This document shows, piece by piece, positions 3,488 to 59,300 of a DNA stretch of 64,000 bases (position 1 is its first letter; every line of letters starts with the position of its first letter). The DNA comes from Paramacrobiotus metropolitanus. Taxonomy: Eukaryota > Tardigrada > Eutardigrada > Parachela > Macrobiotidae. The stretch covers positions 806,001 through 870,000 of the forward strand of contig NW_026570238.1 in the NCBI RefSeq assembly GCF_019649055.1, read 5' to 3'. The position numbers were made by a program, and so were the translations under genes. Under the pieces are notes generated by a model that saw nothing but the letters and a program-made list of their open reading frames with translations, searched no databases and was not told the origin of the DNA.

Positions 3488-4010
3488 GGTGACCACTCCG
3501 TACATACCCTTTCACACCCTTTCACTCCGTACACAACCTTTTGCACTCCCTTTCATTCCGTGCACAACCTATAAGGTTGTGCACGGAATGGGTATTGTAC
3601 TTGAATACTTGTAATCTATATTAGTACAGAAAAGCAAAACTACAAAAAAAATATTACTACGTTTTTGCAAGTTTTTGCAACATCATGGGACCGTTCCGAC
3701 GAAGACGTCCTGGTGTATGGCAGCGTCGACAAATAACTCACGTGGCAAGCGAAGATTGAACATACAAGTGTTACGGAGCAGATCTTGCGGAGATTAGGGT
3801 GAAAAACGTTGCTGTTCAAAATCCAAAAAACGGTCGAGATTGCACTTTTTTTATTCCAGAAATAACTCTGCTGTGAAAAAATTAAAAAAAATTAAAAGTT
3901 GTGTACGGAATGAAAGGAAGCGCAAAAAGGTTGTGCACGGAATGAAAGGGAGTGCAAAAGGTTGTGTACGGAGTAAAAGGGTGTGAAAGGGTGTGTACGG
4001 AGTGGTCACC
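3488..4010. mobile_element. 523 bp MITE with long terminal inverted repeats and 9 bp TSD
   Basis: The left end (3488-3569) and the reverse complement of the right end (3929-4010) agree over about 82 bp with two mismatches, starting GGTGACCACTCCGTACA. It is flanked by a perfect 9 bp direct repeat, TATAATTAT, at 3479-3487 and 4011-4019. Short units such as gttgtgcacggaatg recur inside both arms, including a perfect 17 bp-arm hairpin with 3 nt loop at 3554-3590. The interior (about 3600-3895) has no coding frame, so it is non-autonomous. A 9 bp duplication and long inverted repeats fit Mutator-like elements best; this family assignment is inference. Confidence 0.85.
3554..3590. repeat. Perfect 17 bp-arm hairpin inside the MITE left arm
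   Basis: Arms 3554-3570 (cattccgtgcacaacct) and 3574-3590 are exact reverse complements around the loop ata. The arm sequence is also present in the right terminal region near 3925-3945. Confidence 0.85.
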
Positions 4011-17024: not shown

Positions 17025-18740
17025 ATAGTTAGATTTAGAGGTCATGCAATTTTCTAATCCCAGTTAATATGCATACCAGTGCTGAAGTGCTGATGGATAA
17101 CGCCCGTGAGATTTGTACATTTCCAAGAATTTAATAATTATTATAAGTGCAAAAATTTCAATTTGTACGCGCATATAATTAATCCCTTTATCCAAGAATA
17201 ACAGGAAAATGGATAACGGTAATTAAATAGAGTACTCAGCTGAGTCAGCTTCGACGTTTCAAAATATTTGTAGAGCCGATATGCCGAAAACGTTGACGAA
17301 TGTGCGCGTTTATAAATTGACCAATTGTTGCACAGGCAGCTTTCCGCAAATGTTTTACATTGATGTTGACAAAAACATTGTTTATTTCAAGCTTTAGATT
17401 TTTACCTAGGGTAACTTTTCATTTTAGACGGTGATATTGTTGCTTTCCCTTTAGCATAAGATATCTTTATACACTCAAGTCAACACTTACGGTATGTAAA
17501 CAGAAGTACTGTAACCTATGCCAAACCACCGCGCGCATTGAAATCAATATAAACAGTTTACCAGATTGCAATCACCCCATGGTAACAGTAATGGTAATTA
17601 CTGCATAGACTAAAATGCTCATAACCAAATAATTATCGTAACCACCTTATTTAACTATACATAACCATACATACGCACTTAAGTATATATAAGTACAGTA
17701 AAAAATTCAGCTTGTAAAAAACTAATGTATATAGTTAGCCAGAGCCAAGGTGGAGCCAAGATGGATCCCAAGAGCCTTTTAAAGCTTGAATACTACACTT
17801 TATTTAATTTTGAAGCAAAAGAGGGAATGTACCAGCACTGGTTTCTGAAAGAGAGCTCAAAATATATTCTTTTAAATTTTGTGCTGGCATTACGTATTGA
17901 CAATTAGTGACGCATTAACTGACCGGCGCGCTTACTAGTTACTATACAGTGGATCAGTACTTCTACTGCAAGTCTATGGAAAATAAGACGATGGAAAGGA
18001 ACCAAAATGTCACGGGAATTGTGAGTATCAAAGTAAAAACTCGATACGCAATCCTGTGTGCAGTGTACATTTTACTGCTATTACACGAGTAATAAATGTG
18101 TAGCTTCTGCGAATTCTTACTCTGTCTTTGCGCGGATTCTGGCACTGTCAAATTAAAGTCTAAACACCCATCTTCACTATACCGGTATAAATAAAATTAT
18201 TTCTATTCTGAAGCATCCCCATGGTTAATGTTATTACAATACGGTATTAACTTCAGTCTGCAATTTTGTAGGGAAATTAGTCAGTTCTTTCCAAATCTGA
18301 AATGGATACAAAAGTCGCGCCAGATTGCGATGTGTTGATTCATCGTCTTAGCTTTTAATGTAAGACTGACCGATGAAATGCGTGGCAGTCATCCTATTGG
18401 AGCGGAACTGACGATAACGCAGATAAAGTGAACTTTGCATGGATTCCTGAATTCATACAGCCAGCTGACAATCGAAGAGTCATAGCTTAAGTGTTTGAAG
18501 TCTTTTATATATTTGGGACTTGATAAGATTTCCCTCAGGCACGGAACCCGCAGCCGATATGACGGAGAGATAATCAGCGTAATGTGGTTTGAGGCGTCAA
18601 ATATAAACCGCCGGCCGTCTACGAGTAGTACGAATTTTCAGCGAAGTTGTTCGTCTTTTGCTGTCGGTTCTCGCACCACCACAGTCCAGTTTTCTTTCTA
18701 GTCTATCTTGCAAGTTTCTTAACCAAAGACCAAGACCGAA
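17025..18740. other. 1.7 kb divergent intergenic region (prominin / bulb lectin)
   Basis: Separates the minus-strand prominin start from the plus-strand lectin start, so it should hold both promoters. Short frames at 17725-17907 and 17963-18151 lack homology and splice context. Nothing further recognised. Confidence 0.45.
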
Positions 18741-20426
18741 ATGGCGTACGCTGGCGGTAAGTGTTATAAAAAAATTATGCAGGTGCACAAATCTGAGTCG
18801 GATAGATCTGAAAAGTCGCGGTGCGTAGTGGGAAACAATACTTAACTAATTCAGTTTCACTGTATTCCACTTATGTTGTTATTGTTATGCCTCTTAAATT
18901 TTTTCTTGGATACCGGCATTAATATTACGCTTGCAACCTAACTCCTGTTTACCAACAAACCTTATTGTTAATGCTTTACTGATTAAACAGTCCGTGTAAG
19001 TTGTTTTGTTGTAAAGACGTGTGGCACATATTGTTTTTGAAGTGTTCATGTATGGCATGCGTAACGCAGCCAGGTTCCGAGTGTAAAGCACTAAAGCCGG
19101 TGGTTCTTTGGTTGTCAGATTGCTTACATGGGAAACACAGCCAGAAGATCCATCGCGGACAGCGGATCTATTCGCAGAATAAGGCCTTGGAATTGGTTAT
19201 GCAGGATGACGGAAATCTGGTGCTGTATAGTCGGAAAGACCTGAGACCACTCTGGGCTTCCAACACGCACGGTAAGAAATAAACACATGTGCGTCGCATC
19301 CCGCAACAGTAACAACCAGGCCGCTTAGAGTTTGTATAGAAGGATGGAAATTGTATTGGTGCTCATTAATTTATTGTTAATTATACCGAGGTTTTATTTG
19401 TACGAGTAGTTTATATTGGTTGCTGAAAAATAATAACAGTACGTTGAACGGCTCGTAGTAAAATATGGTCATGGATTTGCGTTAACGTTGCGGCTTTTTA
19501 ATTTGGACAGTGCAGTGTCCAAAGTAGAACTGTGCCTTACTTTTAGGCCGAAACGGTGTGGAAGCCGTTATGCAAAGTGATGGCAACTTTGTTGTCTACG
19601 CTCCGGGCGGACATCCGATCTGGGCTTCCAACACCCACGGAAAGCATGACTGCAAACTGGTCTTGCAGAATGACGCCAACTTGGTACGTCACGATCTGTC
19701 ATGCTGATTTGGCCCGTTTCCGGTTGGTTGACGTGTAGCGTCATTTTTAAATAGGTAATCTATGACTGCCACAACCACCCAGTCTGGGCATCGAACACCC
19801 ATGGACAGTGTCCGGAACACGAGCAAGGTCAGTGATTAGAAAGTTCAACGGTGTTACGTGAATGCCGATTTGAAGCTTTTGAAATCTACTGCTCTTCCCA
19901 GTAAACTGGTCAAGTTTACCCTTTCGTCACTTCTTTTACACACGATTTGGAAATTAATTTATTTCGTTAACAGACATTTTGCACCCGGGCGAAGAGCTTC
20001 TTCCTGGCCGTTCTATCCACTCCAAGAACGGTAAACTGGATTTGATTATGCAGACCGATGGCAACTTAGTGCTGTATCGCACTAGCGACGGCTCACCAAT
20101 TTGGGCCAGCAACACTTGCCATAAGCCTGTCCAGAAGTGCGTCATGCAGCACGACGGCAATCTGGTACTGTACGAGCACAACGGAACTCCCATTTGGGCC
20201 AGCAACACTTACGGACAAAACGGTAAGAAAACGGTTGTTGACAATTAAAAACAGAAGTAAATTCTCTCGATGTTCACAATTGTGTTTAACTATCAAAAGC
20301 AACATTCGACCAAAGTCCAACTTTTTTCCTTCAGGTGCTGAACTGAAAGTCCAGGATGATGGCAACCTGTGCATGTACAAAGGTCATCACTGTTGTTGGG
20401 CCTCCGGAACCCATGGAAGATGTTGA
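18741..20426 (+). CDS. Bulb-type (B_lectin, mannose-binding) lectin with two tandem domains
   Basis: Six exons: 18741-18756, 19119-19271, 19547-19683, 19755-19827, 19974-20222, 20335-20426. They sum to 720 nt, in phase, 239 residues. The protein is nearly all B_lectin. Six copies of the mannose-site motif QxDxNxVxY occur: QDDGNLVLY (from residue 34), QSDGNFVVY, QNDANLVIY (split by intron 3), QTDGNLVLY, QHDGNLVLY and the variant QDDGNLCMY. Each copy is followed by a WASNTHG-like turn. That makes two three-fold beta-prism domains. There is no signal peptide (MAYAGDCLHGK), so it is cytosolic or exported unconventionally. Mannose binding is known for the family; the biological target here is unknown. 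A polyadenylation signal lies at 20592. Confidence 0.9.
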
Positions 20427-20591: not shown

Positions 20592-20597
20592 AATAAA
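20592..20597 (+). promoter_or_regulatory. Putative polyadenylation signal of the bulb lectin gene
   Basis: AATAAA about 165 nt after the lectin stop codon, before the convergent thiolase gene. Confidence 0.5.
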
Positions 20598-47592: not shown

Positions 47593-50538
47593 ATGTTTTT
47601 TCCAGTTTTATTTGTTTTCTTTTGCTCGGCTTCGGCCTACCACTGGACCCTTCCGAACAGTCAAGGTAAATAAATGGTAAAATTATGAACACTGACTGGT
47701 ACAAGCTGCTAAAATTATATAATACATGTTGACGTTGCAGTACATACGTGATTCCCCAGATCAGAATTTGACCTTCTGTACTGGTTTGCAGAACTCTTTC
47801 GCACATTATTGACTAACATCACCCAGTGTACGTACACGACGGAAGAATTTACACGCGATCCCTTTTTCAATGGACAGCAACCAACGTTTGGCACAACTGG
47901 AAAGGTCACCAATACCTACTATGGCATTTGTGCCCCAACGGTCGAGGCCTGCGTCCACCTGGGCACCACTCCCCATCCAGTAACTGATGAATTCCGGGGT
48001 CCAGGTTGTGAAGTGTGCTGCGCTCGACGAACGTGCGGATCGTATCCCATCAACGGCAACGTCCAATATGGCTTCTGCATGCTGCCGGAGCTGATGCCCT
48101 TTAACGATACCGATGGTGCGTTTATGACCACGCCAGCGACAACGTTCACCAACACCTTCGGTACCTTCAGCACGGGACAGTTTACTGATCCAGGATTTGA
48201 CACGGAAGACCAAATGTGCTTGGGATTCGGTGGACAGATTGCCCAAGTCACCAGCTCAAACTGGAGCATCTGGTTAGTGTGTAGGTTAAAAAAACAGCAT
48301 TTCATGATATTTTTCGAAGACTGTAAATGGATCCAGTACAATTTATTTGAGAGAAAACATCCAGCAACATGATAGCTAATCCTAACCTTGACAATGTTTT
48401 ATAGGTGGGATTCTCAGTGCCCGATGAGTGGACGTTGCTGTTTGTTCCCACAACCCAGTCGCTGCGAAACCTGTGGACAGAAATATGGTCGAATGTTTAA
48501 CTTTAAGTAAGCGAATAGTTACTGTGAAGTATTCTGGTGATTTTGAATTCCGTTCTGCCTTACCATTCTTTTTCTACAAGCACATAATAACAGTGATTAT
48601 AAGTTCGACACTCGACATTAAATAGTTCATAGTAAGCTACCATTTATATACATGCAATTAATAACATCTGATTCTATAATATGATATTCTATAATATATG
48701 TAGGCAAGTGTGTATCTTAATATTCCATAGGTAATTAATAATTATGTGTTCGTTACACAAATCCGTGAGAGTAGAGTTTGACTGCCCATGATTTGCGCGT
48801 ATCAGTTGTTTACCCAAAAATGTATTATCATGTTCCTCTTGTAGTGGTACCGCGACTGGACGATCAGGTGGAGACGATGAAACATTGGCATGGAAAACCG
48901 CTGTGCACCAAATGGCCGGTACTGGCTGGAATTTAGGTGAGACTTTCCATACTGTTTTTGTTAGCATTTAAAAAGCGTATGAGTAGCATAGTTGAACAGG
49001 TAGACAGACAAATGCTTCCAGTAATAACAAATACGTATCAAAATAACATACCTATTCAGAAAATCTAAATTTGGATTGCAGGCATGCAACCAGCATTTTC
49101 TCCGTATGGTGACCAATATAGCCAAACTCCCCCCAACTACGAAACATTGCTGTCGCCGCAAATGTGGAATAACGGCTTAAACTTCCTGTACAAGAACAAA
49201 GGTGCTTTAAATATCTCCCTTAAGTCAGAGCAATTTCTGCTCCTTTGTATGTACAAATAATTTTTATATATCGCCGGCACCATTTTGTGTACAGAAACAG
49301 AAACGAAAAAAGGCGATGATGATGATGACGACGACGAAGATGATTACCGTGGATGGTGCTGGCAGGCCGCGATTATGAACAAAATGGGGACCGGAAACGT
49401 GCGATGTGGTGGTGCCCTCATCGGAGAACGTTATGTCTTGACCACTGCCGCTTGTGCTAACTTCACTACGTAAGACCACGTAATTATACTTGTGTAATCT
49501 TATTACAAAGTTCATTACATTACGGTATCATAATGACCATTTTTCTAGTGAAAATAAATTAGTAATTATCATTTACAGGGGAACGTTTGCCGATTACAAA
49601 ATTCGATTTGGAGCGACAGATATCCGGAAGGCTCAGGAGACCAACGCGGTTGATTACGACATCGCCAATGTCTACATGCATCCGGATTACGACACAGACA
49701 CTCTGGATAACAACATTGCCATCATGGAACTCCAGACCCCGGTCACCTGCAACGGCAAATACATCTGCACCATCTGCCTGCCATCGCCGTTTATCATGTA
49801 CTTCAGCAACTTCTCCATGGGCGACAACCACGAACAATGGATTCGCGATGACGTGCGACAGTGTGTAGCAACTGGATGGGGCCGACGAACCTCGAGTACG
49901 TATTGCGCACTTTCATCGAGCTGTATCCTTGACCTTTACTGAACATGAATAAATACTACCATGAAAAACCAGCTTTAAATTTGCCGTTGGGATAAGCAGA
50001 ATTATTTATTTGTTTTACAAATTTTAAATGCTGGTTTGCTGTACACTCTAGCTGGTCCACAAGCCTACATCAAGGAGATGCCGTACATTCCAATCTACAA
50101 TAACGACACCATGTGCGAGACTAACATTCGCAACATGAAGGGTGTGCCGACTACCTACACTCTGCCCAACAACTCCTTCTGTGCAGCTCCGCAACCGACT
50201 ACCCGTGGCAAGATGTTCTCTACATGCCAGGGAGATGCAGGTAAATTTTAATGCGACGCTCAGAAGGCCAGAATCTATTAAAATTTAAAACTAATGTGAC
50301 GTTGGGAATTGAATTAGGTGGGCCGTTGGCCTGCTGGTATGGCGGTCGGTTCTATCTCACGGGTCTGCTGTCCAGTTTCAATACGCAGCGGTGTGACACG
50401 GGCAAGACGGGAACCATGGTCTCCAAGATGCTGCAGCCCAACCGCGGTATGGACACACAGTCCTTGGTTCTGGACGTCTTCACCGACATCGCCCAGTTCA
50501 TTCCGTGGATCAATCGTATTATGTACGGGTTCTTTTGA
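47593..50538 (+). CDS. Secreted catalytically dead serine-protease homologue
   Basis: Nine exons (47593-47665, 47792-48272, 48405-48506, 48845-48936, 49082-49201, 49295-49469, 49579-49895, 50052-50240, 50318-50538) give 589 residues, in phase. There is a signal peptide (MFFPVLFVFFCSASA), then a Cys-rich N-terminal region (CEVCCARRTCGSYPINGN; CPMSGRCCLFPQPSRCETCG), then an Asp/Glu run before the protease domain. The trypsin fold reads CGGALIGERYVLTTAACA (His position Ala), DNNIAIMELQ (Asp position Asn), CVATGWGRR, and GDAGGPLACW (Ser position Ala). All three catalytic residues are therefore replaced. Such homologues act as cofactors or binding proteins in arthropod immunity; the function here is inferred. 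Confidence 0.9.
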
Positions 50539-51602: not shown

Positions 51603-54600
51603 ATGAAATCTGGTGCTTTTACTGTTTTCTTGTGTAAATGCGTTGCAACAATGACGCTTGTTGCTTGTTCGCAAGCGATTGTAATACCATCCCGGACCGC
51701 CGAACAAAACCTTCTAGATCTAGTTTCCGGATTTGATGGCGAGGATCCTGCGGAGGTATACAATACATACATATAGACATTGTACAGTACATTTTCATTC
51801 TGTATACAAATGCAAAATATTCAAAGAACTTCTAAAAAAATATTAATGGTAGTAAGTATTGTATTACAGTAATTCCAAATTACGAAAAAGGCAGGTTTTC
51901 CCTCATTTGCAGAACACGCCGAAAAGCAATCGGTCTTTCGTGGTTGGCAAGTACTGCTTTTTAAAAGATGGGCAACCATTTCGTTACGCTTCAGGTAAAT
52001 CTAATAATAATTGCAGCTGATCGTAAAGCAAGCAAAACATATATCGCTACACTCTTGAAAATAAAAATATCGTATAATTACGACTTTTTTATTACATTTT
52101 AGGAAGCTTCCATTATTGGTAAGTATATTGCAGTATGCTAAAGCATATTGCAGCATGCTTTGGAATTTTGTGGGGGACAATTTCGAATAAAAAATGAGCA
52201 TCTGAAGACAATAAGAATAAACAACATTAATAATTGACATTTTCCCAGGCGACAGCCACAGGAATATTGGGAGCAAACTTTTCTCACTATGAGAGCTGCT
52301 GGATTAAACGCTATTCAGACGTAGGTAACTGAAAATCGATGGATTCGGAAAAAAATTACTGTTCATATTCAATATCCTTGTTGTCAGTGCATGGCTAATA
52401 CGAAATTACGGAAAGTTTTGTAGCTATCTGAACTGGGCACTGCACGAGCCGGAACCCGGCGAATACCGCTTTAGTGGTCAGCTGGATATACTGAGATTTG
52501 TCAAGTTGGCACAAAAGCAGAATCTTTTGGTAATTTTACGCCCTGGACCGTTCATCGATGCCGAGGTTGATATGGTAATTAGCCGTCCTTGCTTCATTGA
52601 TTTTAAAGCTTACGGTCACCCACTCAAATGAAATAAATTAAAGTCTATTAATGTCTAGGGCGGATTTCCGTACTGGCTGTTGCGGGAAAACCCTGGCATG
52701 CAGTTACGATCCAGTGACCCGACGTATATGAAATTTGTCCAGCGTTGGTATAGCGTAGTTCTTCCAATGTTACGTAGCATGACTTATGCAAATGGAGGTC
52801 CTATCATTTCCGCTCAAGTAAGTTCAAACGCGATTACCATCATTAGATTTTTCAAATTATTATTTAATTCAGATATAGATAACATTTCAAATATCCTGCA
52901 GTGTATTGTCATACAGATTGAAAACGAATACGGGGCCACTGGGATTAATGACGCCAAGTACAAGCAGGCTCTAAAAAATTGGACACAAACTTTCTTAGGC
53001 CCGGACATTGTTTTATTCACCACAGACAACAATCTTGACTGGACAGTCAAGAATGGGCAAATCGACGGTGCTCTGGCAACGGTGGATTTTGGAGCCGGAT
53101 CGGACGTCAACGATGCGTTCCGTATCGAACGGTTATACAATATTGACGGCCCTCTAGTTAATAGTGAATATTATCCCGGTTGGTTAGACCACTGGGCGGA
53201 ACCATTTGCATACGTGGATTACAAAAAAGTTGTCAAGACAATGGAAGAAATGCTGTTGATGAACGCTTCATTCAACGTATACATGTTCTATGGTGGAACC
53301 AACTTTGGTTTCTCGGCTGGAGCGAACGCACAAGATTTCAATTTTCAGCCCATAACAACATCCTATGACTACGATGCCCCGATTTCCGAAGCCGGTGATG
53401 CGGGCAGCGAAAAATTTATGGTCAGTAATGACTAAGTAATAAGTTTTGTATAGATTATTCTCGTTCCTTGCATAGCCATGTTAATATAAATATTGATCTT
53501 TTCAGGCTATACGCCAGCTGCTGGCAAAGGTCAGTCAGATGTTTTGATTCTTAAATTTTGTGCACACAAAATTCCACGTTGTTATTTTGACGATCGCAGT
53601 ATATGCCAGACCCACCTGGACCAATTCCGCCGCCGCGAGAAAAGGCAGCGTACGGCAAACTTCAAATGGAATACAAAGGGTCACTTTACCATAATCTGGA
53701 ATATTTGGTGCCGAATGGACCGGTTAGCGCCGCTTTGCCACTGGCATTCGAAGATCTCCGGCAGCCATACGGCTTTGTTCTCTACAGAACAACCATAACT
53801 TCAGCCTTCCGTGATCCAGCGCTGCTTTTAATTAATGAATTACACGATCGCGCCATAATATTTATAGACAAAGTATGCTTTATGACTTCGACAATCAGTT
53901 TACCGTCTACATATATCATTTTGATTAGCAGTAGGATACTTGTTTTTTTTCAATCGTAGAATCCAGTCGGTGTAATGAGTCGCAGTATTAATATTAATTT
54001 CCTACCGATCACCTTACGCCCGGGCTCCGTGTTGGATATTTTAGTGCACAACGAAGGGCGGGTATGCGTTGGACCATCCATGAATTACGAGCGAAAGGGC
54101 ATCATTGGCAATGCTACTCTGGATGGTCACATCCTGACCCCCTGGAAAATGTTTCCTTTGCAATTACCTTCATTTCCAGTCACATCTCCAAAGTCTTTAA
54201 AGCTGAAAGACGACAGTGAAGTCCGCTTGCCGAGGCATGACGGGGGTTTTACACTGCCGAGTTTTTTCAGTACACATTTTGTGATCGACGAAGCCAAAGA
54301 CACATTTCTGGACATGACCGGTTGGCGTAGTGTAAGTCACCTTTGAAGTAATTTGGGCATTCCGAGCTTTGGTTACGTTACACAGCGCATGCGGCGAAAC
54401 AGTCATGTTTCATCGTGTTGTACTTCAGGGTTACGCATTTATAAACGGACGAAATCTTGGCCGGTACTGGCCAGTCCAGGGTCCTCAGGTACAAAAACAT
54501 AATTTGACATATCATTTCGCGTCAAAAATGTACGCTTGAAGTTCTCATGCAAACCGGTATACACAACATTTGTGCAGCGGCCTTCTGAACTTCTTTCTTA

Positions 54601-54793
54601 GATAACGTTATATGTGCCTGGGGTATACCTCAATGCGAATGCAAAAAATACTCTGGATATTTTCGAGTTGGACGGAGCACCTTGCAGCGAAGGAAGTGGC
54701 ACCTGTGCCGTCAATTTTGTCACTGCCCCAATTTTAAACGGAACAGTGCCGAATTTTCGTAGAAGGAAATTGGTTTTAAGAAGAAAAGATTAA
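51603..54793 (+). CDS. GH35 beta-galactosidase-like glycosidase, copy 1
   Basis: A signal peptide (MKSGAFTVFLCKCVATMTL) is followed by GH35 blocks: FLKDGQPFRYASGSFHYW, MRAAGLNAIQTYLNWALHEP, LVILRPGPFIDAEVDMGGFP, then the acid/base Glu in IENEYG and the nucleophile Glu in VNSEYYPGWLDHW. NVYMFYGGTNFGF and SYDYDAPISEAGD follow. C-terminal beta domains contain RPGSVLDILVHNEGR, KGIIGNATLDG and GYAFINGRNLGRYWPVQGPQ. It ends RRRKLVLRRKD, TAA 54791-54793. A 16 nt microexon lies at 52103-52118. Both catalytic Glu are present, so removal of terminal beta-galactose, secreted or lysosomal, is expected. Polyadenylation signal AATAAA at 54981. Confidence 0.92.
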
Positions 54794-56318
54794 GCCAGAT
54801 TGTGATCGACGACATTTTTGCAACTTATCGCTGACGGTTCTTTATGTTAGATTATTGTGTGTTTGACAAGATCAGCTCTTAATTCACGTAGAGACGTAGT
54901 ATCAGTAAAGACCTGCATTGGGTTCGGGAGTATGGTATATTTGAGCAATATTCTCAAATTAACTGTAGCGTATTTTATGTAATAAACATGAAAGTTCGTT
55001 TTTTTATGCTTCACTAATTATTGCTCCTCATGGCAGTTGTAGAAGAATTATTGAAGTAGCCACAGAAAGTCAGACATTTGGTCTTCTGTAATATGCGTTA
55101 CTCATCGAGTTAAATTCGTAGGGTACTACGGTCCCTACTGTTTTGAATAAGTATACGAGGATAATTAATACACTTCCTTTAACGTTGCTCTCGTAATTTC
55201 CTTCGACGCGGTCACAACATTCCTTCGACGGGCCTGTTGTCACGTACACACGATTGTTGGGTACTCTGCTCTAGTACAAAGTTTTACTTAAATATTCAGT
55301 TTGAATATGGTCGCACATTCTAAAAGCTACCACCACTACTTGCCACGAGTTGTGGCACTTGAAAAGAAGCAATGCAAGGCACAAATTATGATTAGGTCTA
55401 TTGGAATACTATTGGAATACGCTTCCGCTAAAAGAGCTAATGCATGAATATTTCCAGATATCCAATATTTTGCTTAAGTTTTGCTTAAGTTTGAAAAGTA
55501 CGCTTTCGTATAAAGAATTCCGCTGCTAAATCGAGTTTAATTCATTTACTGCGACAAGTAATTTAGCGTGATATGCATTTTTTATTTTAACGCCCTGGTA
55601 TAAATCGAGTTTTTGCAATTTCCGGTACGAGTACCGGCATACCATTGCCCCGGTATACTCGTACTAGCAATAGTGACAGATCTAGATTTAAAAACCACAA
55701 TAAGCAGTATTGTGTCCATTGTAAAATCAAACAGTGCAGAAATTATTAATACTACTATAACAATTTCAATTAGTACTAATACACCTATCTTCAAAGCATA
55801 ACTTGTTTACGTGGCTTTTTTATCTTTGAACCAGCGGAAATTAAATAAGTAATGCATTTGTAAGCATATGCTGGTAGGTGGCTTTATCATAGTTCATTGA
55901 CACTTTGATTGGAAGTTTGCTGATTTGCAGTTTGCTCGAAATCATTCGTCTATCAGTATTATTTTATCCAGTGTTATAGAACTATTTATGTCACTCTATC
56001 TCTTTACAAAATCCTTTTGGAGATTAGATGTTTGTATATTTAGTATAGAAGTATGGTCAATAACTTACAAAGTATCGCACTTATGTTATTATTGCAAATA
56101 TTGCAGCTAAAGAGCAGATAGTCTGTGCTGCAAAACTTTGACTCGGAGTAAGCAAAAGCGATGTGTTTGTTAAACTTTGTTTCGTGCTACCAACGGATGC
56201 ATTTGTTGTCGTTTTTACATTTTGATTTACTCCTTCGCAATTCGCTCTAGTGATTAGCTTGTAATTTGGTAGCTGCGAATCTGTCGCTGGCAGTTCTTGG
56301 ATTCATCGCGGCTCAAAA
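54794..56318. other. Spacer between the two GH35 genes
   Basis: About 1.5 kb with the copy 1 3' UTR (AATAAA at 54981-54986) and the copy 2 promoter. The 55582-55801 frames on both strands are AT-rich chance openings. Confidence 0.5.
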
Positions 56319-59300
56319 ATGCGGTGGTTTCTTGGTTGTGGAATTCTCCTGATGGCCTGCATGATGGTAAACAGGATTACAGGAATGCTGCAACCGTCTT
56401 CTGTTTGCTGCATTCGATGTTCGTTGATTGTCCATTTGCTTAGGTCGACGCGGACAGATCGTTTACTGTGGGCAAAGGAGTTTTTCTCAAAGACGGACAG
56501 CCATTTCGTTACATTTCGGGTATGGCAATGTTTAACGCATTTCTAGTACACACTTCGGATCTCTTTACAGTACGAGTCGGAGTATACTGCTATAAATATT
56601 GCCTGATGTTGCAGGGACCATACATTACTGGAGACAGCTGCCGCAATACTGGGAAGACACGTTTAATAAAATGCGAGCGGCTGGACTTAACACTTTATCA
56701 ACGTAAGCATCAAATTTTAAAGTATTTCGAAGTCTAGAATTCAAGTTTACTCTTGTAACTAATAATAAGAGTGCACGCTGTCCACATTTAATTTATGAAA
56801 TGAACTTGAGACTGTGACTATGCTACAAATCGACATTTAAGGTTTTTTTGTCAAATGCATTTGCATGTAGTTTCAAAGACAGAAGTTGTATTTTGAATTT
56901 GGATACTTAGAATTTTTTGTCTAGGTATCTTTCGGCATTTTTCGCATGTTGATTGTGTATGAAATTCGCGTTGCCACAATTATGCGTTTCACAGAATGTG
57001 GCTAACCGGTGTTTTAGATATATAAATTGGAATCTTCACGAACCAGAACCGCTGCAATACACTTTTGACGGTGGACTGGACATTCGTAAATATTTCCAGT
57101 TAGCACAAAAGTACGGACTTTTAGTTGTGCTCCGACCCGGGCCCTTCATAGACGCTGAAGTTGATATGGTATGCAAAAATTATACGTGTATTTTACTTGT
57201 AATTTCTTGTATGATGTTAATTATGATTTATGTATCGCATTTCTTTTGCTCTACAGGGTGGCCTCCCTTACTGGCTGTTGAGATTTAATTCCACCATGAA
57301 GTTACGAACCAGTGATCCATCATACTTGCAGTATGTGGAGCGTTGGTATCGGAAAGTGCTCCCGATGTTGAAAGATCTCACTTATGCCAATGGAGGCCCA
57401 ATCATTACCGTTCAGGTAAAAGCAGCTGAGCGGAATACGTAAGGCTTACAAGTGAGCCGACAAATTTCTTTTAATTAGTGCTATCACTATTTTATTTGTT
57501 TTTCAGTTTTTGCAGCATTGCGTTTCTCATCTAGAGTTTGCTGTTACTTAACTATTTTTACTGGAAATTGTTGTATTTGGTTGCTCTCTTTTTGTAGTAA
57601 AATCTTTTTGCATGCCGGCTGGCTTTTTGTGCTTGAATGCTACAGATCAGTAACAACCAGTTATGGAACATATTATCGTGTTCATACGTATTGTACGCAT
57701 GCCTGGCTAGGTTCTGTGACTGTTTTTAGATCGAGAATGAGTATGGAAGCTACCCTGCGTGCGACAAGGTATATCAGAACTTTTTGAAAAAGTTGGTTTT
57801 GGAGATAATGGGCCCAAATATCGTGCTGTATACCACGGACGGACCACTGGATTACATGTTATCATGTGGACGGGTAGACGGCACTTTGACGACATGCGAT
57901 TTTGGAGCTGGCGATAATGCCACTAACGAGTTTGCGGAATTGAGAAAGTTCAATATAGATGGACCGCTTGTTAATAGTGAGTTTTATCCTGGCTGGATTG
58001 ACCATTGGGGCGAAGCATGGAACACAGTCAGCACAGCCGATGGTATAACGGTCCTTTAGTTTTCTTTTTTGAGTGTTCAACTATCAATTTTTGAAACATT
58101 TCCAGTGCTTGCGACCGCTGAGCAGATGTTACAAATGAACGCATCCTTTAATGTTTATCCCATTCGAGGCGGCTCGAATTTCGGTTTTTCGGTTGGATCT
58201 AATATGGGAAGCGAATTCCAACCGGTGACCACAAGCTATGATTTCGATGCGCCCCTGAGCGAAGCCGGTGACCCCCGGGATAAATATTACCAATTCCGTC
58301 AGCTTGTTGGCAAAGTGCGTGAAAGACATAAGAAGTTTTATAACAATTTCAAAGAAAGAAAGTCTTAAGTATTTTTTACCATAAAATAGTAGAGATACGG
58401 CTACATCGATGTGAAAAGTACAGTATACTTTCCATAAGAGCCGATACTTCCGAAAACACGTTTTAATGCACCATCCCATGAGTTGTTGTCTGACAAATTC
58501 TTACTGTTAATAATTTTTAATGTTTTGCAGTATTCGCCGTTACCACCCGGTCCAGTCCCGCAACCATCTCCAAAAGCAGCTTATGGCAAAGTTCAGATGA
58601 GTTTTGCGGGCACAGTTTTCGACAATCTGAAGCAGTTGTGCCCCGATGGACCAGTTGTTTCGCCCACTCCTTTGTCGTTTGAACTGTTGGAGCATGGATA
58701 CGGTTTTGTGTTATATCGGACAGTTGTGAAAGAGCGACACAGAGATCCAGCTATTTTAAATGTTCCCAATCTGGCGGACCGCGCTATTGTTTTTGTGGAT
58801 CAGGTGAGACTTAGGTTCTTATCGCCGCCAGCTTTAAATAAATAATGCATACATGTAATTTTGCTGTGCAGTGGCCTGTGTCATGTGACATCATGTTTAA
58901 ATCAGTTTGAACTGACGAATGCTTTGCATTTTAGAAACCTGTTGGAATTCTGAGCCGCTCAGCAAATATTTTTACGATCGCGATTTACGTTCAACCTGGC
59001 CAAACTTTAGATATTCTAGTACATAACGAAGGTTAGCAGCGTTAGCTATTTGGTTTAGTTATCAAGCGCGATATTGACACGCGTGGGATAATTGTTTTGC
59101 CACATTTTTTGTAATCTTAGAATAAAGTTTCATTTCAAATTTTGATCCAAGTTTTCGTTACGCTTTTTTCGCTGGCTGGGTACACTCTTCCTAATCGTGC
59201 CGTACTTGTTGTACATGTCTGGCTAATAACGGGATCAAACAGTATCTGCTTTAACAAACTTTAATAAACAACGAAAGTACATCACAAAATGTTTGGTAAG

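Follow-up and report, generated by a model that had tools for sequence, protein, structure and literature searches.

On the forward strand of the window, i.e., the whole 64-kb stretch of DNA that was analyzed, a lectin gene was identified at positions 18741-20426. It is predicted to consist of six exons, which are joined by splicing to an uninterrupted reading frame coding for a protein of 239 amino acids. The short exon 1 (18741-18756) contains the start codon and codes for MAYAG plus one further nucleotide, and an in-frame stop codon is located 21 nt upstream of the ATG. It is followed by the phase-1 intron 1 (18757-19118), which lies at the start of the N-terminal lectin domain (N domain). 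This domain is encoded by exon 2 (19119-19271) with sugar site 1 (QDDGNLVLY), exon 3 (19547-19683) with site 2 (QSDGNFVVY) and the first part of site 3, and exon 4 (19755-19827), which comprises the end of site 3 (QNDANLVIY), the end of the domain and the linker. Intron 4 (19828-19973), also of phase 1, lies at the start of the C-terminal domain (C domain), whose sites 4 and 5 (QTDGNLVLY and QHDGNLVLY) are located in exon 5 (19974-20222) and whose variant site 6 (QDDGNLCMY) is located in exon 6 (20335-20426) together with the stop codon.

Introns 1 to 5 have lengths of 362, 275, 71, 146, and 112 nt and the phases 1, 1, 0, 1, and 1. Site 3 is split by intron 3 and its motif is present only after splicing. 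Since this site is restored solely by the splice, it is a good internal check on the exon model. The frame unbroken over all 239 codons and the GT-AG borders of all five introns bear out the six-exon structure which had been proposed in the earlier note. By pattern match, a TATA-box-like sequence was found upstream of the gene at 18602-18607 (forward strand), being one of two such matches (the other at 18506), as well as an AATAAA resembling a polyadenylation signal at 20592-20597 (forward strand). A tblastn search of the 64-kb window for other copies of the lectin gave nothing better than E 0.5 outside 18741-20426.

The protein consists of two B_lectin domains and a short linker, and it ends with the second domain at amino acid 239. 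It matches the Pfam family B_lectin (PF01453) with 68.9 bits (cut-off 32.4, E 6.3e-19). Mannose is held by residues of the QxDxNxVxY stretch in this kind of protein (PMC6359319). The three sites of the N domain, starting at amino acids 34, 66, and 97, all follow this canonical motif, and so do two of the three in the C domain, which start at amino acids 153, 185, and 216, the last one being the variant. Translated in six frames without splicing, the window contains four canonical motifs, all within the lectin locus; 50 sequences of the same length (64 kb), generated with a first-order Markov model, contained a mean of 0.02. The Pfam match and the located motifs agree with the previous description of a tandem B_lectin protein with five canonical sites and one variant.

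A signal peptide was not found in the first 38 residues by a hydropathy scan, which is not a trained predictor (best 9-residue mean 0.38). Between 16001 and 19100, two candidates for alternative first exons with the right phase were identified, neither of them signal-like in the same type of scan (best stretches 0.6 and -0.13). The lack of a signal peptide, which had been noted before, was therefore found again for the N-terminus as well as for both alternative first exons.

Of the 20 neighboring ORFs chosen from the ORF lists of the window, 13 match a Pfam family with E <= 0.001, and the remaining seven are without any match. The families comprise serpin, leucine-rich repeats, ING, PHD, dual-specificity phosphatase, TRAPP, NDUFC2, trypsin, LRAT, thiolase, syntaxin, and a family 35 glycosidase in two pieces, which is a usual set for an animal chromosome; the syntaxin match, counted among the 13, stayed below its cut-off. 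For the phosphatase ORF, the best solved structure is 5bug, a phosphatidylinositol 3,4,5-trisphosphate 3-phosphatase (PTEN; E 2.4e-47), and for the glycosidase ORF it is the beta-galactosidase 3thc (E 1e-53), which we take to be the human lysosomal enzyme. One tRNA-Ser gene is the sole Rfam match in the window at gathering scores. Because so many neighboring ORFs belong to families usual in animal genomes, contamination is unlikely, and together with the coherent intron-exon model this upholds the earlier view of the lectin as a gene of the animal itself.

Three further structures were observed in the window. At 3488-4010, two arms of 83 nt in opposite orientation are 98% complementary and separated by 357 nt; they overlap tandem arrays of a roughly 31-nt unit, and the element resembles a small non-autonomous DNA transposon whose ends are repeated. 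On the forward strand at 52659-58842, pieces of family 35 beta-galactosidase-like ORFs apparently form two sets in series, which are probably a tandem gene pair. Here the pieces at 52659-53432 and 53591-53956 have a Pfam match, and those at 56953-57285 and 58438-58842 are similar to them by eye only. Finally, at 47752-49939 (forward strand) a cysteine-rich ORF is located upstream of a trypsin-like ORF; the Pfam match is confined to the trypsin part, and by eye the arrangement is reminiscent of a clip-type protease region. Such a cysteine-rich stretch beside a trypsin-like ORF, together with the gene density, brought tardigrades to mind, an impression which no other result confirmed.

Relatives of the window lectin were identified in prokaryotes, viruses, and solved structures. 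In prokaryote genomes, 34 stretches matched a search pattern and 23 of them encode a relative, all bacterial by title. These bacterial proteins align nearly over the full length of the window lectin (up to 41% identity over amino acids 14-236), and several of the best ones sit in longer open frames of 486-707 amino acids. In viral contigs, a relative is encoded in all 18 stretches, and one viral locus (L025) adjoins a Pseudomonas row in the tree. A family scan gave a match in three of four genomes with such loci versus none of 14 control genomes. Among solved chains, 36 match the window lectin, with 4oit at the top (E 4.8e-24), followed by the pyocins L2 and L1 and then the plant tandem lectin 1dlp. 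In the structure records, 4oit is named a LysM domain protein, 8a9m and 1npl are named agglutinin, and 1xd5 is named antifungal protein GAFP-1. We take 4oit to be a protein of Mycobacterium smegmatis and 8a9m and 1npl to be daffodil proteins, and 1xd5 presumably originates from gastrodia.

For the alignment and the tree, domains were accepted at E < 1e-8 and a coverage of 75% of the model. By this rule, 24 of the 45 loci yielded 43 domains, of which three identical ones were removed and 40 kept, and the remaining 21 loci, being without an accepted domain, were left out. The resulting 50 rows are composed of these 40 domains, eight reference stretches, and the two window domains. Plants are represented by five rows from four chains, two of them partial.

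When only rows with 75 or more aligned columns are considered, the N domain has its best identity to the C domain (48%), with a margin of one point. The C domain has its highest identity to the plant agglutinin chain 8a9m (50% over 103 columns), followed by the N domain. In the free tree, the N domain is placed beside 4oit (85/88, not starred) and the C domain beside domains of Kitasatospora (92/43). Forcing both window domains into one clade costs 12.1 log units and is not rejected (p 0.26). The bootstrap is unsettled, 27 of the 47 inner branches are open, and both window rows depart in letter composition, so that the tree cannot place the window domains.

Introns 1 and 4 hit aligned codons, amino acids 6 and 127, both encoding the Asp of the D-x-L-H start of a domain, and both introns are of phase 1. 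The simplest account of this match is the doubling of a module which carried its own intron: the ancestral gene would have had one domain, preceded by a phase-1 intron, and its duplication would have taken place in the genome of a eukaryote. The internal introns (amino acids 57 and 103 in the N domain, 210 in the C domain) have no counterpart in the other domain and would have been gained or lost after the doubling. Thus, the intron positions suggest, with medium strength, that lectin module and intron were duplicated jointly in a eukaryote. Against such a doubling, the C domain is closer to 8a9m than to the N domain (50 versus 48%), and the free tree splits the two. The sequences of introns 1 and 4 have no similarity to each other beyond 7-base matches, so that either the doubling is old or the match in position is due to chance; two phase-1 introns could come to lie at matching places by chance. 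That the tandem form arose in this animal lineage via an intron-flanked module, with the tandem mannose lectins of bacteria (LlpA), of plants (SCAfet), and of this animal being independent inventions of one two-prism design, is a tentative reading to which we give slightly less than even odds.

That a bacterial B_lectin gene was acquired horizontally and received its introns later seems rather unlikely. Such an origin is consistent with the top solved match being the presumably mycobacterial 4oit, with the place of the N domain beside this chain in the tree, and with the nearly full-length alignment of the bacterial proteins. In addition, the lectin coding sequence has a raised third-position GC (0.617 versus 0.462-0.565 in seven neighboring ORFs; 0.378 is the GC of the lectin introns), which could reflect a foreign past or high expression. 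However, the matching phase-1 introns at the domain starts point to a doubling in an intron-bearing genome, the tree does not resolve the placement, and B_lectins are listed for sponges and fish as well, so that vertical descent with loss is possible (PMC3585409, PMC6240691).

The designation plant-bulb-type in the earlier note is not supported as a statement of kinship. A pair of cysteines, one in site 1 and one before site 2, is present in all five plant rows, in neither of the two window domains, and in none of the 43 other rows; we take it to form the plant disulphide. In the tree, the plant rows group together with support (95/92) and leave the window domains outside, and the window lectin is about equally close to bacterial and to plant domains. 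The identity of the C domain to 8a9m counts against this judgment, as this chain has the highest identity to it also outside the motifs (33%, the top value among 14 rows listed). Outside the motifs, the N domain reaches 18-21% to three plant rows listed versus 35% to 4oit, and 30% to the C domain. Judged from these sequences, the cysteine pair would outweigh the identity of the C domain, and the gene was probably not borrowed from a plant. A horizontal gain from a monocot bulb lectin is therefore highly improbable, even if single clades of the window domains with the plants (p 0.36) or of the C domain with the plants (p 0.50) are not rejected and the C domain is nearest to 8a9m, given the missing cysteine pair, the plant clade without the window domains and the low plant identity of the N domain.

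Regarding its function, the protein is best read as a free-standing tandem GNA-fold protein of the animal, acting as a multivalent mannose-binding defense agglutinin, for which we estimate a probability of roughly 0.6. The two beta-prisms would act as one multivalent unit on mannose of microbe or parasite surfaces, and the bound microbes or parasites would be clumped or coated. The lectin would be released by non-classical secretion, as has been proposed for the fish pufflectin. This protein is present in skin mucus and agglutinates, and its non-classical secretion was suggested because it is unglycosylated (PMC6100423). The absence of a signal peptide is not without parallel: an example is the fish lily-type lectin OppLTL, for which a signal peptide is not predicted either and which haemagglutinates (PMC9549603). 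Microbes may not be the target, since pufflectin bound a trematode and none of several bacteria tested (PMC6100423), and since a paper from 2013 states that antibacterial activity had not been assigned to eukaryotic proteins of the B_lectin kind (PMC3585409). Parasites and microbes alike are conceivable targets of the agglutinin.

The main rival to a secreted agglutinin is a purely cytosolic role, in which the protein would remain in the cell and, as a sensor of glycans or a linker similar to comitin, bind to mannose glycans of vesicles or of compartments that have been damaged or invaded. This role, which we regard as doubtful, agrees with the missing signal peptide. Furthermore, OppLTL was mainly cytoplasmic in HEK293T cells and inhibited NF-kB signaling there (PMC9549603), and the slime-mould comitin is described as an actin-binding, vesicle-associated and mannose-specific protein in a title cited in PMC3585409. 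On the other hand, apart from its domains and the short linker, the window lectin has no tail that would be capable of binding actin, and pufflectin occurs in skin mucus and agglutinates (PMC6100423). The secreted agglutinin remains the preferred reading.

The B_lectin domain is recorded in monocots, fungi, slime moulds, sponges, fishes, and bacteria (PMC3585409, PMC6240691). An invertebrate B_lectin was not found in the titles and abstract openings searched, and absence there does not mean absence from print; the terms bulb, GNA, PF01453, and B-lectin do not occur in a rotifer lectin paper (PMC8878817). In the main text of the tardigrade genome paper PMC5531438, the word lectin is absent, and the two papers listed on mannose-binding lectin and tardigrades do not, judged by their titles, deal with B_lectins. 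Compared with known systems, the monocot GNA-type lectins share the fold and the QxDxNxVxY sites with the window lectin, and SCAfet (1dlp) is a tandem protein too (PMC6240691), but their cysteine pair is absent from it. Two B_lectin domains in series are also present in the LlpA and pyocin L bacteriocins and in the bacterial tandem proteins. LlpA differs in its C-terminal hairpin extension (PMC6240691), whereas the window lectin stops at the second domain. The chain 4oit has 47% identity to the N domain, 35% outside the motifs, and all three sites, but is a single domain. The animal and slime-mould proteins were compared by description. The fish lily-type lectins pufflectin and OppLTL share the B_lectin domain and an animal host with the window lectin, and OppLTL also shares the missing signal peptide prediction, but it consists of one domain with 117 amino acids and a non-conserved third site (PMC9549603), compared to two domains and 239 amino acids here. 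Comitin and the mannose-binding lectin of the sponge Lubomirskia are listed as further eukaryotic proteins with the domain (PMC3585409). Comitin is set apart by the actin binding ascribed to it (PMC3585409), and the sponge protein by its size of 13 kDa and its connection to spicule formation (PMC4557014); its classification conflicts, as it is C-type in the sponge review (PMC4557014) and B_lectin in PMC3585409.

This kind of lectin is already known, and it is the two-domain form and the intron map which are unusual beside the animal cases described in these sources. To the B_lectins mentioned for sponges and fish in these papers, the window lectin contributes a case with introns and two domains, and it corrects the habit of taking a B_lectin domain as a sign of plant ancestry. 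For an animal tandem B_lectin, the intron map provides a simple test between doubling at home and import from bacteria.
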